A DNA stretch of 64,000 nucleotides from an uncultured Geobacter sp. (lineage in GTDB: Bacteria > Desulfobacterota > Desulfuromonadia > Geobacterales > Geobacteraceae): the NCBI GenBank assembly GCA_903915655.1, contig CAIWTU010000093.1, forward strand, positions 1 to 64,000, read 5' to 3'. Positions 1,369-10,265 of the stretch are shown here, one piece after another. A program made the translations under genes and the position numbers. Numbering within the stretch: position 1 is the first letter of the stretch; each line of letters opens with the position of its first letter. The notes under the pieces were generated by a model that was given only the letters and a program-made list of their open reading frames with translations, did no database searches and was not told the DNA's origin.

Positions 1369-3042
1369 ATGTCGCAAATAGAGCCCCCCGAAATTGCTCC
1401 AACGGACATTCCTGCCCGACGCCCCTGCCCTTCGAAGCTGTTCGTTGAGACTACCACCCGCTGCAACCTGCGTTGCGTTTTCTGTGTCAAGGAAGGATGG
1501 GATAAGGCAAAGATGGAGGGTGACATGGCGGATGAGCTCTTCGCTGCCCTGGAACCGGCTTTTCCTCATCTCGAGGTTCTGGTCCTCAACGGGGTCGGTG
1601 AGCCGCTCCTTGACCTGCGGCTCGAGGAGTTCATCCGCAAGGCCAAGGGTCTGATGCCGCCTGGGAGCTGGATCGGGTTCCAGAGTAACGGCATGCTTCT
1701 GGACGGGGAAAGGGCTATTTCCCTGGTGGCGTCAGGAGTCGATCGGATATGCATCTCTGCCGATGCTCTCAATCCGGATACCTTCCGACAAATCCGTCGG
1801 GGTGGTGAGGCGCAGGGGGTAGAAAGCGCCTTCGCTGCCCTCCATGCTGCCAAGAGTATCTGCGGGGAGCACGACCTCCAGATCGGACTGGAGTTCGTGC
1901 TGATGAGGGACAATGCCCGGGAGTTGCCCGCCCTCCTCCGGCGTGCCGTATCCCTGGGTGCAACGTTTGCTATCGTAACCCATCTCCTTCCCTATGCCGA
2001 GAGTACTTTCCCCCTGACCGCCTTTGAGTCCAATATGGACGGCGCCCTGGAGCTCTTCGCCGAATGGAGGAATAAGTCCGAGTCGGAAGGGTTGGAGCTC
2101 GGGAGCTACTTCAAGGTGCTCTGGAAATATATGCGCACCCCCACGGAACGAGAGCTGGCGGAGTTCCTGGTTGAAATTTCATCTGACGGCGCCCCTCAGG
2201 ACGCCATCGAGCGACTGATGGGATCAAGTCTGCCGAGCAGACAGATTACAATAAAAAGTTTTGCAGATACCCGGGAACAGTTGCAGCAGCTCTTTAGCGA
2301 CTCTCCCTGCTGGAAGGAGGCTGAGGGGCGTATCCTGTTAGAGTTGCGTGAAAGGGTTGCAGCTGGGCCCTTTGAAACAGCTGCTGCCGAAGAGCTGGTC
2401 CATTCCTGGAAGAGAGGATCGGAAAACGGGGAGGCGCCTCTTATGGAGTACCTCAAGGTTGTCTGGAAGTATACGAGGACGCCTAAGGAACAGCGAATTT
2501 ACGATCTGGTAGAGCAAATGAAGGCCGAAGCCCGTTCCCGGGGGATATCTCTCCACCTGAAAAACCTGATGGAGCGTGACGAGGAATGGGGCGCCGAGCT
2601 GGAAAGGGTCTTCGCCGAAGCCAGGGGGGTAGCAGACGAAACGGGCCTTGACCTCACGCTTCCCGGAACTGCGCCCGGCAGTAGACGAAGGTGCGATTTT
2701 ATCGAAGAGGGGAGCGCCTTTGTTTCCTGGAACGGGAATCTTCACCCCTGTTATTTCCTCTGGCACCAGTACGGATGCCACCTCTTTGGGCGGAAGAAAT
2801 TTGTGAGCTCGAAGAGTTTCGGGAACGTAAGTGAGCGGGGTATTCTTGATATCTGGAATGACAGCGCTTTCCGCACCTTCCGGGAAGAGGTGCTTCGGTA
2901 CGATTTCCCTTACTGCTCTAACTGTAACGTGGTACCCTGCCAATACTTGTCCGCCGAAGAATTCGAACAGGACTGCTACTGCAATACCGTACCCTGCGGA
3001 GACTGTTTCTGGTGCATGGGGCTGTTCAACTGCCTGCGGTAG
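1369..3042 (+). CDS. Radical SAM/SPASM protein, probable metalloenzyme maturase
   Basis: A cytoplasmic radical SAM enzyme of 557 residues. The [4Fe-4S]/SAM motif CNLRCVFC has Cys at 32, 36 and 39, followed by the GVGEPLL glycine-rich strand. The C-terminus is unusually rich in Cys (442, 461, 470, 516, 519, 524, 536, 538, 543, 546, 549, 555) and fits a SPASM-type domain holding auxiliary Fe-S clusters. Between them is a long helical insert in which a motif occurs twice: YFKVLWKYMRTP at 247-258 and YLKVVWKYTRTP at 361-372. It resembles the radical SAM/SPASM family annotated as putative metalloenzyme maturase in Geobacter relatives. The substrate cannot be read from the sequence, and no obvious target peptide or metalloenzyme gene lies next to it. 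Confidence 0.8.
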   Translation: MSQIEPPEIAPTDIPARRPCPSKLFVETTTRCNLRCVFCVKEGWDKAKMEGDMADELFAALEPAFPHLEVLVLNGVGEPLLDLRLEEFIRKAKGLMPPGSWIGFQSNGMLLDGERAISLVASGVDRICISADALNPDTFRQIRRGGEAQGVESAFAALHAAKSICGEHDLQIGLEFVLMRDNARELPALLRRAVSLGATFAIVTHLLPYAESTFPLTAFESNMDGALELFAEWRNKSESEGLELGSYFKVLWKYMRTPTERELAEFLVEISSDGAPQDAIERLMGSSLPSRQITIKSFADTREQLQQLFSDSPCWKEAEGRILLELRERVAAGPFETAAAEELVHSWKRGSENGEAPLMEYLKVVWKYTRTPKEQRIYDLVEQMKAEARSRGISLHLKNLMERDEEWGAELERVFAEARGVADETGLDLTLPGTAPGSRRRCDFIEEGSAFVSWNGNLHPCYFLWHQYGCHLFGRKKFVSSKSFGNVSERGILDIWNDSAFRTFREEVLRYDFPYCSNCNVVPCQYLSAEEFEQDCYCNTVPCGDCFWCMGLFNCLR

Positions 3043-3149: not shown

Positions 3150-4280
3150 ATGGAAAATAATATTTTTTTTGCAACAACCCCCCGGGGAGTGGAGACTGTT
3201 CTGGCAGATGAACTGCGGAAGTTGGGGATTGCAGTTACGGCAGTCGAGAAGGGAGGGGTTCGCTTCAATGGGGATATGGCTACCTGTTATAAAGCCAATC
3301 TCTGGTTGCGTACCGCCAGCAGGATTCTTCGGCCGCTTGCGGAGTTTTTTTGCGAAACCCCTCAGCATCTCTATGATGGGGTTCGCGCCATCGATTGGCG
3401 ACTTTTTCTTACCCCCGAAATGACTATAGCTGTTGATTGCAAAGTGCGCGATTCAGGTATCACCCATTCTGGATACGCGGCGCTTAAAACCAAAGATGCA
3501 ATAGTCGATTGCATCAGGGACCACTCAGGTCGTCGTCCTTCCGTTGATACCCTGGACCCGGATCTCAGGGTCAATATCCATATCCTTCGTAATAACTGTA
3601 CCGTCAGTCTGGACAGTTCCGGGGTCAGTCTGGATAAACGCGGATATCGTCTGGATACGGGGGAAGCCCCACTCAGGGAGACACTGGCTGCCGCGCTTCT
3701 GGAACTTTCCGGGTGGGATGGTACGGTACCGCTGGTTGACCCCATGTGCGGCGCCGGAACCATAGCCATTGAGGCCGTACTTAAGGCAACCCGGCGTCCT
3801 CCCGGCCTTATACGCAACCGTTTTGGATTCCAGCGTTGGCCCGACTTTGATAGCACGCTCTGGAGGACGTTAGTTGAAGCGGCTGAAGGGGAGATACTTG
3901 AAGCTCCTCCCGCACCGATACTCGGCTATGACATTGCTGCCAAGGCTATTGAAAATTCGAGAAAGAACGGGCATCGGGCGGGAGTCGAAAACATGGTGGT
4001 TTTTACAAAGGGCAACATCAGTGATCTTGTCCCTCCCGGGCCGCCGGGAATCATTCTTTTCAACCCCCCCTACGGGGCCAGACTCGATGAAGAAGAGGCT
4101 CTGAAGCCCCTCTACAAAAAAATCGGGGATGTTTTGAAGCAGCGCTGTAAGGGGTATACCGCTTATCTTTTAACCGGCAGTCAGGAGTTGAGCAAATGTG
4201 TCGGTCTGAAAGCTACAAGGCGTATGGTCCTGTTCAATGGACCGATCGAGTGCCGCCTCTTAAAGTACGAATTATATTGA
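3150..4280 (+). CDS. THUMP-domain class I SAM-dependent RNA methyltransferase (RlmL N-terminal/YpsC type)
   Basis: The 376-residue protein has an N-terminal ferredoxin-like plus THUMP region (about 1-160) that binds RNA and a C-terminal UPF0020 methyltransferase domain. The SAM loop is VDPMCGAGTIAIEA and the catalytic motif is FNPPYG, typical of N2-guanine or N6-adenine methylation. The size matches the single-domain bacterial relatives of the 23S rRNA G2445 methyltransferase half of RlmL, so the likely substrate is 23S rRNA. It starts with ATG about 107 bases after the radical SAM gene and is probably transcribed on its own. Confidence 0.88.
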   Translation: MENNIFFATTPRGVETVLADELRKLGIAVTAVEKGGVRFNGDMATCYKANLWLRTASRILRPLAEFFCETPQHLYDGVRAIDWRLFLTPEMTIAVDCKVRDSGITHSGYAALKTKDAIVDCIRDHSGRRPSVDTLDPDLRVNIHILRNNCTVSLDSSGVSLDKRGYRLDTGEAPLRETLAAALLELSGWDGTVPLVDPMCGAGTIAIEAVLKATRRPPGLIRNRFGFQRWPDFDSTLWRTLVEAAEGEILEAPPAPILGYDIAAKAIENSRKNGHRAGVENMVVFTKGNISDLVPPGPPGIILFNPPYGARLDEEEALKPLYKKIGDVLKQRCKGYTAYLLTGSQELSKCVGLKATRRMVLFNGPIECRLLKYELY

Positions 4281-4560
4281 ACGGTTCCTGAGCTCAAATT
4301 ATGGGGGGAATGAAGCTTTTGCCTGGCTGATTTTTCTCAAAAGGTAAAGATGCTGTCAGCGGGCTCTATTTATTGATTCCGCTGTTGCTGAAAACTGTTC
4401 TATAATAGAAAAATGTTCTGAAAGTTAACATTAAAAGGGTAAATTGCATCCGCTATACGCAATGTAAAAATTGTGAGTTACCGAAGGAAAAGTGTCTTTA
4501 AACCGAACAATGGTATGCAAATTAACCCGTATTACCTCTCCCTCTTTCTGAATTTTGCCT

Positions 4561-4576
4561 TGGCACTTAAATTGCT
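4561..4576 (+). promoter_or_regulatory. Sigma-54 (RpoN) promoter
   Basis: TGGCAC, five bases, TTGCT, with the invariant GG (4562-4563) and GC (4574-4575) separated by exactly ten bases. This is a full match to the -24/-12 element. The predicted start of transcription is near 4587. It points at the AmiS/UreI gene about 255 bases downstream. Sigma-54 control is common for nitrogen genes, which suits an amide/urea channel. Confidence 0.8.
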
Positions 4577-4586
4577 TAATTCAGAA

Positions 4587-4842
4587 CAGCGTTTTGGTTG
4601 TTCAATTGTTTTCTTATATCTGGTTTTGTTGTCAGTTGCTGATCAAAATGCAATAAGTGCTCAGGCACGGGCGCTTTTTGTGTTTTTGTACCATGAGTTG
4701 GTCTGATTTCTAAAGAGAAAGGGGGGGTAGTGCTTAGCTGGCAGGGGCAGGAACGATTTTCGTCTGTTTTTATGTAAGTCTCCATGCAAATCATTACGAA
4801 ATGGTGGGGCAAAAATTCAATTTTGATGAGGGAGGAAGAAAA
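4587..4842 (+). promoter_or_regulatory. Long untranslated leader (or sRNA) with two terminator-like hairpins
   Basis: Between the predicted sigma-54 start and the AmiS/UreI start codon lie about 255 non-coding bases. One hairpin (aagtgc / gcgctt, about 4653-4677) is followed by tttttgtgttttt. A second (caggaacga / tcgtctg, about 4749-4767) is followed by gttttta. Either the leader is an attenuator, or the promoter makes a small RNA that ends at one of these. I do not recognise a known riboswitch consensus. Confidence 0.4.
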
Positions 4843-5367
4843 ATGACTTTAGTATGTTTGGTTGCGATCACAATGATGTGGTTTCCTTTAGGTTTGTTTT
4901 TCGTCGGAACGGGTGATGCGAAGACCTGTGGTATGGTGAGCTTGTGCGTCGGTATTGTTATAACTATTGGCGGAATTATCTCTGCTACAGGTGCTACCCC
5001 CAACTTATGGGATGCAAGCATATTGATTGCCTTCGGACTTCTGTATCTGTGTGTTGCACACGCCTTGCTGTGGGGTGTGGAAAATATGAAGTCTGTTGGT
5101 AATGCCAGTATGATGTTGGCGATCCTCTGTGCCATCTATTGCCTCGCGTATTCTGTCGGTTTCCCTGCAGGTCTGGCTAAAATTGCCGCAGTTCCATATC
5201 TTGCCTTCATGTACGCCACTTTTGTTGCATTGCTGGTTGCTGTATGGGCTAATTGCTATGGCAAGCTCTCAGGAGCAGCTGTCGGCTGGATACTACTGGT
5301 TCTGAATTTTATTTGCCTTGTCACTCCTGTTTTCTATCTTTTCCTGCTTGGCAAGCTCCCGTTCTAA
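4843..5367 (+). CDS. AmiS/UreI-family amide/urea channel
   Basis: A 174-residue membrane protein made almost wholly of six hydrophobic segments, the size and pattern of the AmiS/UreI family. These inner-membrane channels pass urea or short-chain amides; UreI of Helicobacter is gated by acid. I chose the ATG at 4843 because a strong Shine-Dalgarno (gagggaggaag) sits just before it; an in-frame ATG at 4801 has none. No urease or amidase gene is adjacent, so the substrate is open. The upstream sigma-54 promoter suggests induction by nitrogen limitation. A strong terminator follows, so the gene stands alone. Confidence 0.7.
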   Translation: MTLVCLVAITMMWFPLGLFFVGTGDAKTCGMVSLCVGIVITIGGIISATGATPNLWDASILIAFGLLYLCVAHALLWGVENMKSVGNASMMLAILCAIYCLAYSVGFPAGLAKIAAVPYLAFMYATFVALLVAVWANCYGKLSGAAVGWILLVLNFICLVTPVFYLFLLGKLPF

Positions 5368-5389
5368 TCTTTTGAAGGGTTTATGACTT

Positions 5390-5428
5390 GAAAAAACGCC
5401 TGTCCATCTTCTGGACGGGCGTTTTTTC
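5390..5428 (+). terminator. Rho-independent terminator after the AmiS/UreI gene
   Basis: An almost perfect hairpin, aaaaaacgcctgtcca / tggacgggcgtttttt, with a short loop and flanking A and T tracts. It can act on both strands. Confidence 0.9.
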
Positions 5429-5623
5429 AATTCAGGGTTTTTAAAGAGAGGATCGGTCACAACAGGCGAAGCGTACGGTTGATTCAGAATCAATAAGTTT
5501 GCGCGGAGGGGGAATATACCGCCTCCGGATAAAACCAGATGGCAGTTGCAAATATCCCGTTACCTGCTAGAATAAGGGGGTGCGGGGACGTATACATTCT
5601 AAACGAACAAAAGGAGAACAACC

Positions 5624-5896
5624 ATGCCGAAGTACGTAATTGAAAGGGAAATACCGGGTGCAGGGAACATTGGTGCGCAGGATATGCAGGCTATTTCTCA
5701 GAAATCCTGTAGCGTCCTGAAAGAACTTGGCCCACAGATTCAGTGGGTGCAGAGTTATGTTACCGAAGACAAGATTTACTGTGTCTATATTGCCCCGAAC
5801 AAGGAAATGGTTCTGGAGCACGCAAAAAAAGGGGGATTCCCTGCCAACTCTGTTTCAGAGGTTAAAAGGATGATTGATCCGACAACAGCTGAATAA
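5624..5896 (+). CDS. DUF4242 (SCO4226-type) small ferredoxin-fold protein
   Basis: A 90-residue soluble protein that begins MPKYVIEREIPGAG and carries the internal ENKIYCVY-like strand (here EDKIYCVYIAPN). Both are typical of DUF4242. A Streptomyces member of the family binds nickel, but that role is not shown here. The ATG at 5624 has a good ribosome site (aaaggagaacaacc). The gene is alone between two terminators, so it is a single-gene unit. Confidence 0.75.
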   Translation: MPKYVIEREIPGAGNIGAQDMQAISQKSCSVLKELGPQIQWVQSYVTEDKIYCVYIAPNKEMVLEHAKKGGFPANSVSEVKRMIDPTTAE

Positions 5897-5979: not shown

Positions 5980-6023
5980 GCATCTTAAAATCAAATGGCT
6001 TAAAAAACGGCACTGGGTGCTCC

Positions 6024-6114
6024 CTTCGACTCCGCTCAGGGAACATACGCTCAGGGAACATACGCTCAGGGAACATACGCTCAGGGAACATACGCTCGCT
6101 GAGCGGAGCCGAAG
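6024..6114. repeat. Palindromic element enclosing four 15-bp tandem copies
   Basis: The arms cttcgactccgctcag (6024-6039) and ctgagcggagccgaag (6099-6114) are inverted copies with one mismatch. Between them the unit tcagggaacatacgc is repeated four times without change (6036-6095), then a short tcg spacer. A palindrome of this type is common as a dispersed intergenic repeat in several bacterial groups. Here its loop has been expanded by tandem duplication. Confidence 0.85.
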
Positions 6115-6197
6115 CGCCACTACCGAAGTTGCTCTTTGTCAAAGCTCCGCCGAAGCGGCGTGGGGCGCTAATCGGCAAGTTTGATGTAGAGTCAAGA

Positions 6198-9105: not shown

Positions 9106-9493
9106 TTGGTCGAAGCAGACAGGGTGGCCGCTGCCCGTTTATCGGGGAGAGGAAAGTCCGGGCTCCAGAGGGCATGGTGCTGGATAACTTCCAGCGGGGG
9201 TGACCCCAGGGAAAGTGCCACAGAGAGAAGACCGCCCGCCGGAGCTTTAGCGAAGGCAGGTAAGGGTGAAAGGGTGAGGTAAGAGCTCACCAGATCCGCC
9301 GGTGACGGCGGATGCTAGGTAAACCCCACCAGGAGCAAGGCCAAATAGGGAAGCGTTAAGGATTGCCCGTTCGTGCTTCCGGGTTGGCTGCTTGAGGCTG
9401 CAGGTAACTGTGGTCCTAGAGGAATGGCTATCGCCCGTTTGTTGGGTAACCGCAGGCGGGAACAGAACCCGGCTTATGGTCTGCTTCGACCAA
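9106..9493 (+). ncRNA. rnpB: RNase P RNA (class A)
   Basis: Catalytic RNA of RNase P. The ends pair over 13 bases (ggtcgaagcagac / gtctgcttcgacc, stem P1). The conserved core gaggaaagtccgggctcc lies at about 9169, the acagagagaag segment at about 9220, and the aggtaagggtgaaagggtg block at about 9258. The length of about 388 nt is normal for class A. Confidence 0.95.
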
Positions 9494-9505
9494 AATATTG
9501 GAAAT

Positions 9506-9631
9506 CAGTGACCAGTGACCAGTGACCAGTGACCAGTGACCAGTGACCAGTGACCAGTGACCAGTGACCAGTGACCAGTGACCAGTGACCAGTGACCAGT
9601 GACCAGTGACCAGTGACCAGTGACCAGTGAC
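9506..9631. repeat. Eighteen tandem copies of a 7-bp unit (CAGTGAC)
   Basis: The unit CAGTGAC is repeated exactly 18 times with no change, starting 13 bases after rnpB and ending about 60 bases before the next start codon. Because 7 is not a multiple of 3, every frame is read as a 7-residue repeat on translation; these frames are not genes. Copy number is likely to vary between strains through slippage. Confidence 0.97.
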
Positions 9632-9692
9632 CAGGGGTAGAGACGGGTTTCTGTCAAAACATTGAACTCTGCTCGACACTGTTGGAGAAAAT

Positions 9693-10265
9693 TTGGACGA
9701 TCTTGAAAAATGGGATAAGGCAATATCTGCGGTGAATAGGGAATTTGCTTCATTACCAGAGCCATTTTTGTCAAAGCTCAAGAATTCGGTCGAAACCATC
9801 AGGAAATATAAAAGGTCCGTTTTTGCGTTGACTGAAACGATCAATGCAGGAGAAATATGTAAAGCTTGTCGGGGCGAATGCTGCCGTAAAGGGAAATACC
9901 ATTTTACGGTGACCGACCTGCTGGTCTACCTGGTCGAAGGGAAGGAGCTTTTCGTACCCTGCTTCACCAATGGCCGATGCCCTTATTCGGGAGATGCCGG
10001 CTGTCTGATGGAAGTGGAATATCGCCCTTTTAATTGTATAACTTTTCATTGTGAGGAGTTGGAAAAACTTCTTCCGAAACATGCTGTTGAGGAGTTTTAC
10101 GGTTTGGAGGGAAAACTCCGTTGCCAGTACGGCGAGTTAGAAAAATTGTTCGATAATCGGTTTGCATATGGGTTGCTTGCCAATTACGAGCGGAATTTTA
10201 AGCAAAGTGGCATGATGTTATTTCAAAATCCTCCAGGAGACCGGGATGAAATCAGAGTGCAATGA
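9693..10265 (+). CDS. Conserved Cys-rich protein, YkgJ-like, unknown function
   Basis: A 190-residue soluble protein. A helical first third leads to a Cys-rich core: CKACRGECC (Cys 56, 59, 63, 64), then Cys 90, 96, 104, 115 and 120. This spacing resembles YkgJ-type zinc/iron-binding domains, so a bound metal or cluster is likely. The start is a TTG with ggag about 8 bases upstream. The 7-bp repeat array lies about 60 bases before it and could affect expression. Its 3' end overlaps the next gene by 20 bases, so the two are likely co-expressed. Confidence 0.6.
   Translation: MDDLEKWDKAISAVNREFASLPEPFLSKLKNSVETIRKYKRSVFALTETINAGEICKACRGECCRKGKYHFTVTDLLVYLVEGKELFVPCFTNGRCPYSGDAGCLMEVEYRPFNCITFHCEELEKLLPKHAVEEFYGLEGKLRCQYGELEKLFDNRFAYGLLANYERNFKQSGMMLFQNPPGDRDEIRVQ

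Follow-up and report, generated by a model that had tools for sequence, protein, structure and literature searches.

Sigma-54 regulons of alcohol metabolism are known from Clostridiales, where the enhancer-binding proteins AdhR and AorR control adhA and aor, respectively, through TGT-N10-12-ACA sites and -24/-12 promoters (PMC6615313). In Geobacter sulfurreducens, the part of the published RpoN regulon description considered here gives the consensus TTGGCACGGTTTTTGCT (PMC2725144). We analysed a 64,000-nucleotide stretch of DNA from an uncultured Geobacter sp. (the window), which carries at 4843–5367 a gene for a UreI-fold channel of 174 residues and six helices (features lie on the forward strand unless stated otherwise). 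We consider it probable that this gene belongs, as an outlier, to a sigma-54 regulon of alcohol oxidation governed by a GAF-PAS activator, and that it encodes a channel for an acetate-type solute. The proposed regulon resembles AdhR-adhA and AorR-aor in having a dedicated activator for alcohol dehydrogenase or aldehyde oxidoreductase genes. However, the Clostridiales systems belong to another phylum and serve alcohol synthesis (PMC6615313), whereas the regulon described here adds a porin and a UreI-fold channel, and its operons share a start-site dyad and a Shine-Dalgarno (SD)-like box.

The initial annotation had reported a complete -24/-12 match upstream of the channel gene, which our analysis confirmed. 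The site TTGGCACTTAAATTGCT at 4560–4576 scored 20.0 of 20.5, the highest on both strands of the window, and is its only near-perfect -24/-12 site, with the GG and GC dinucleotides, exact spacing and consensus flanks. Sixty dinucleotide shuffles gave a mean of 0.18 sites scoring as high per window. The site is kept at the same position in nine related genomes, and the usual spacing to the -12 element predicts a start near 4587. Judged from the sequence, sigma-54 control of the UreI-type channel is well supported. The promoter agrees with the G. sulfurreducens consensus, although the part of that regulon description considered here notes no such channel among the targets (PMC2725144). Of 147 related genomes, 57 encode a homologue of the channel, but the promoter is confined to one clade; for most of the other homologues, the 700 bp upstream of the gene contain no good sigma-54 site.

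Upstream of position 4500, where the initial annotation had advised looking for an enhancer-binding protein site, we found paired conserved sites, predicted to bind an activator, at 4396–4430, approximately 163 bp upstream of the promoter. Site A (TGTTCTATAATAGAAAA, 4396–4412) is conserved in nine genomes, and the same motif recurs at porin and alcohol dehydrogenase (ADH) promoters. Site B (TGTTCTGAAAGTTAACA, 4414–4430) lies 18 bp downstream of site A at every aligned channel locus. A block conserved in the channel and porin promoters contains a third sequence on the reverse strand (CTTTAAACCGAACA at 4496–4509, consensus CCTAAATTGAACA), which we judged by eye to be an inverted activator half-site. 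At 4582–4596, a 15-bp dyad (CAGAACAGCGTTTTG; CAAAACAAYGTTTTG in the relatives) is centred on the predicted start. It is conserved in all nine channel loci and in the porin promoters and is weaker in the ADH promoters. The position of the dyad across the start makes a DNA element more probable than an RNA hairpin, and we infer that the dyad is best read as an operator for a second regulator. Besides the activator pair, the inverted block, the promoter and the dyad, the aligned loci share a G-rich box (G-box) and the true SD sequence, while the remaining leader is variable.

Searched alone, the promoter-plus-dyad pattern gave one match per genome in 9 of the 48 genomes of the family, only at the channel locus. 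The activator-site pattern, likewise searched alone, gave one match each in the same nine, again only at that locus. These nine module-bearing genomes form one clade, and the counts are not independent. All nine matches lie between rlmL and a DUF4242-type gene. Reversed-pattern controls for both patterns gave no matches, and the promoter-plus-dyad pattern found nothing beyond the nine across 141 genomes of the order.

Separate genome searches with a single activator site and with the dyad converged, at the same spacing, on a second locus upstream of a porin gene. This locus comprises a sigma-54 promoter followed by genes for the porin, a lipoprotein, a GAF-PAS-AAA-HTH sigma-54 activator, an iron-type ADH (Fe-ADH) and an AOR-type oxidoreductase. 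A porin operon and an ADH operon thus flank the activator gene, which is present in eight of the nine module genomes, and both operons are preceded by the same activator sites (related copies at the ADH promoters), a -24/-12 promoter, the dyad and the SD-like G-rich box. The distance from site A to the -24 element is 161–165 bp in eight aligned channel loci, 163–169 bp at the porins and 121–123 bp at the ADH promoters, the latter differing from the other two by about four helical turns. In the genome of the window, the porin/activator/ADH/AOR stretch lies on contig C165 (activator gene at G000:C165:4108-6051), where the porin promoter falls past the contig end and the ADH promoter has ATGC in place of TTGC at -12. 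The activator gene sits on a different contig from the channel, to which it is tied by motif only. Activator orthologues with at least 70% identity occur in nine genomes, namely eight module genomes and G001, which has the porin site; the module genome lacking one, G035, is 69% complete. Among the single-site matches that we checked for further regulon members, none had a good downstream -24/-12 element. As separate observations, a HipA/HipB-like gene pair interrupts the lipoprotein-activator stretch in the genome of the window (L176:2155-3755), and the activator gene of G016 (L168/L156, G016:C4) shows an apparent frameshift around residue 67, which may be an artefact of assembly.

Other Geobacterales carry the channel in operons of the order porin-DUF4242-channel, which have -24/-12 sites of their own and lie next to an Fe-ADH, a kinase and another sigma-54 regulator. 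The link between the channel and alcohol oxidation is therefore seen twice, because these distant relatives pair the channel with an Fe-ADH and a different sigma-54 regulator. The NtrC-type regulator of their alcohol operon was rejected as the activator of our locus, having no orthologue in the genome of the window or its group (best 43–44%). At two loci (L083:3793-4648 and L085:4354-5055), face-to-face sigma-54 promoters lie between Fe-ADH and porin operons and carry TTCTCCAC-type inverted repeats, probably the sites of the adjacent NtrC-type regulator.

We propose that the GAF-PAS-AAA-HTH activator binds the paired sites at 4396–4430, probably aided by the inverted site at 4496–4509, and would loop to the sigma-54 polymerase at 4560–4576 for a start near 4587. 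The same activator, presumably alcohol-responsive, would turn on the porin and the iron-type ADH/aldehyde oxidoreductase genes around its own gene. Sigma-54 often serves nitrogen genes, and the channel belongs, by its relatives and its fold, to the UreI/AmiS superfamily. Both facts would suit a channel for urea or amide use under NtrC-type control, in keeping with the nitrogen limitation under which the initial annotation would have mapped the transcript. We regard that reading as improbable: in the loci examined, we noticed neither a urease nor an amidase around the channel, channel homologues lie within alcohol-oxidation operons, one slot holds an acetate transporter, and the activator sites, common to porin and ADH genes, point to an alcohol-oxidation regulon rather than to nitrogen control.

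With the start expected at about 4587 and the ATG at 4843, the leader is 256 nt long, in agreement with the approximately 255 bases estimated earlier. The initial annotation had called the leader structured, which folding did not bear out (MFE z 0.07, with 106 of 200 shuffles folding at least as well). Two hairpins with T-tracts had also been noted, and two terminator-like sites do lie inside the leader, the start-site dyad being one of them. However, their number is near chance (three against 1.7 expected over 4281–5630) and they are not conserved in the relatives as T-tract hairpins; the local hairpin followed by a T-tract at 4655–4676 is present in the window copy and not conserved in the other eight loci. 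The relatives' leaders keep only the start-site dyad, a promoter-proximal hairpin (P1), the SD-like G-box and the real SD sequence. Just after the dyad, seven of the nine P1 regions contain a terminal helix of at least six pairs against about 1.4 expected (binomial 6e-5, with 0.155 as the rate in shuffles, by a criterion picked after the fact), and several pairs, as counted by script, show changes on both sides.

This helix at a fixed place, together with the two terminator-like hairpins, could be taken for an attenuator or riboswitch of the channel gene, or for a sigma-54-dependent small RNA ending at a hairpin, as the initial annotation had suggested. We consider both improbable, since folding of the complete leader does not differ from that of shuffled sequence, neither the T-tract hairpins nor any leader peptide is conserved, and the window copy itself lacks the P1 hairpin. 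A search of Rfam with the window and the locus returned no leader family and hairpin noise on the terminator only, and no conserved terminator/antiterminator was found in the leaders of the nine channel loci. We favour instead an ordinary 5' UTR, which would carry two regulon-wide elements, the dyad as an operator for a second regulator and the SD-like box.

The box, a G-rich sequence without a conserved start codon (GAAAGGGGGGG, 4717–4727), is present in all nine channel leaders as well as in the porin and ADH leaders. Its pairing with the 16S tail (energies -9.2 to -13.0) is about as strong as that of the channel gene's own SD sequence (GAGGGAGGAA, 4828–4837), which is conserved in all nine loci. 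The pairing clearly exceeds that of shuffles in the leaders of the porin and ADH operons, whereas among the channel leaders it does so in only roughly one half. A leader peptide after the G-box was rejected because start codons are not conserved, and CsrA sites were rejected by eye because GGA is missing from several copies. The STAB-SD of cry3A is likewise an SD-like 5' UTR sequence without a start codon, which binds the 30S subunit and blocks RNase J (review PMC4113751). By analogy, the box may retain a 30S subunit and increase the stability of the mRNA, a hypothesis to which we add that the genome of the window contains an RNase J-family gene. STAB-SD has, however, been described in Gram-positives (PMC4113751), and the distance of the G-box to the 5' end varies here from about 20 to 130 nt. 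Common to three operons, the dyad and the box are concrete, as yet unexplained features of the sigma-54 leaders of Geobacter relatives, which are relevant to metal reduction and to bioelectricity production on ethanol.

The assignment of the protein to the AmiS/UreI channels held for its fold and its relatives but not for its own sequence. The window protein gave no match to PF02293 even at an E-value of 10, while aligned relatives scored 26.5–34.4 against a cut-off of 25. Its model (pLDDT 88.5) matched H. pylori UreI best by both Foldseek and VIA, with a TM-score of 0.82 and a Z-score of 19.9 over 166 residues. The two proteins share the six-helix fold and a weak profile match (PDB 3ux4, 6nsj) at 14–15% identity; the window channel differs in having no urease noticed nearby and in its predicted control by an alcohol regulon. 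The acetate channel SatP/AceTr (PDB 5zug, 5ys3; NF038013) has a similar helix arrangement, although its sequence homology to the window protein is undetectable. The similarity to SatP by fold only is weak, because its Z-score of 15.8 falls below the 16.6 of a designed helical barrel. A SatP-type protein modelled from one sequence reached a pLDDT of 52 and was set aside.

The link to SatP comes from the locus itself, in which the channel gene varies between fixed flanks. The DUF4242 proteins of G035 and G029 are 100% identical and their RlmL proteins 90%, against 41% for their channels; for G016 and G021, the values are 85% in RlmL and 40% in the channel. Conversely, G035 and G026 are 97% identical in the channel and 77% in RlmL, and their DNA is 93–95% identical in the reading frame but 50–63% in the leader. 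On the RlmL tree, the five channel types need five changes, where four is the minimum for five types; the five changes are no better than with shuffled labels. Between the fixed flanks, the channel gene has been replaced at least four times. In G031, the gene preceded by this control region encodes a SatP-type acetate transporter, a replacement that suggests acetate or another small solute of this kind as the substrate of the channel.

Further SatP-type genes occur elsewhere in nearly all module genomes, and the replacement therefore need not mean the same function. An alternative is a channel of the same sigma-54 regulon that imports alcohol or protects against aldehyde, as would suit its association with alcohol dehydrogenases under two different regulatory arrangements. 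Yet ethanol crosses membranes freely and replacement by a SatP-type transporter suits acetate better, and we find this variant unlikely, if less so than the nitrogen or attenuator readings. The most likely function, as far as sequence comparison can tell, is a small-solute channel, probably for acetate, under an alcohol-responsive sigma-54 activator; channel and porin would transport a small molecule that alcohol oxidation consumes or produces. This reading would assign a UreI-fold channel that has no urease to a regulator and a regulon and would give it a substrate open to testing, be it acetate or a different metabolite of alcohol oxidation. Two channel families of similar structure are also connected here through their natural exchange at a single locus. 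More tentatively, and with the balance somewhat against it, the activator sites, promoter, dyad and leader may form a fixed regulatory slot, including at the start site a second operator common to the regulon, in which repeated swaps of channel genes from the two families make UreI-type and SatP-type proteins interchangeable acetate valves of alcohol-oxidising Geobacter relatives.

The left flank of the slot is the RlmL-like methyltransferase gene at 3150–4280. Downstream of the channel, an inverted repeat (AAAAAACGCC...GGGCGTTTTTT, 5384–5433) is a likely terminator hairpin ending its transcript, at which matches to sRNA and miRNA hairpins are at chance level. It is followed at 5624–5896 by the gene for a DUF4242/SCO4226-like protein of 90 residues (PF14026, E 6e-29), which adjoins the channel in most homologous loci. 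The channel had been described as an orphan, which is true as to urease and amidase, neither of which was seen nearby, but not as to the DUF4242-type gene, which travels with it. As far as these neighbourhoods tell, the channel's partner is the DUF4242-type protein, not urease. No channel homologue was found in four complete or nearly complete genomes of genus g9 of the same family, nor in several other genera. A DUF4242 search of G001, G009 and G010, also without the channel, returned none in a search that had no positive control.

In G011 (L081:3439-8768), a second UreI-type channel gene lies between a large glycyl radical enzyme-like gene and a radical-SAM activase-like gene, which suggests another small-molecule pathway. 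Two genes upstream of the channel, the window encodes a radical SAM maturase of the TIGR04311 type (1369–3042). In L177, a gene of this family also adjoins those for the activator, ADH and AOR. Short tandem repeats occur at 6020–6130, after the DUF4242 gene, and at 9500–9780, after the RNase P RNA (9111–9492).
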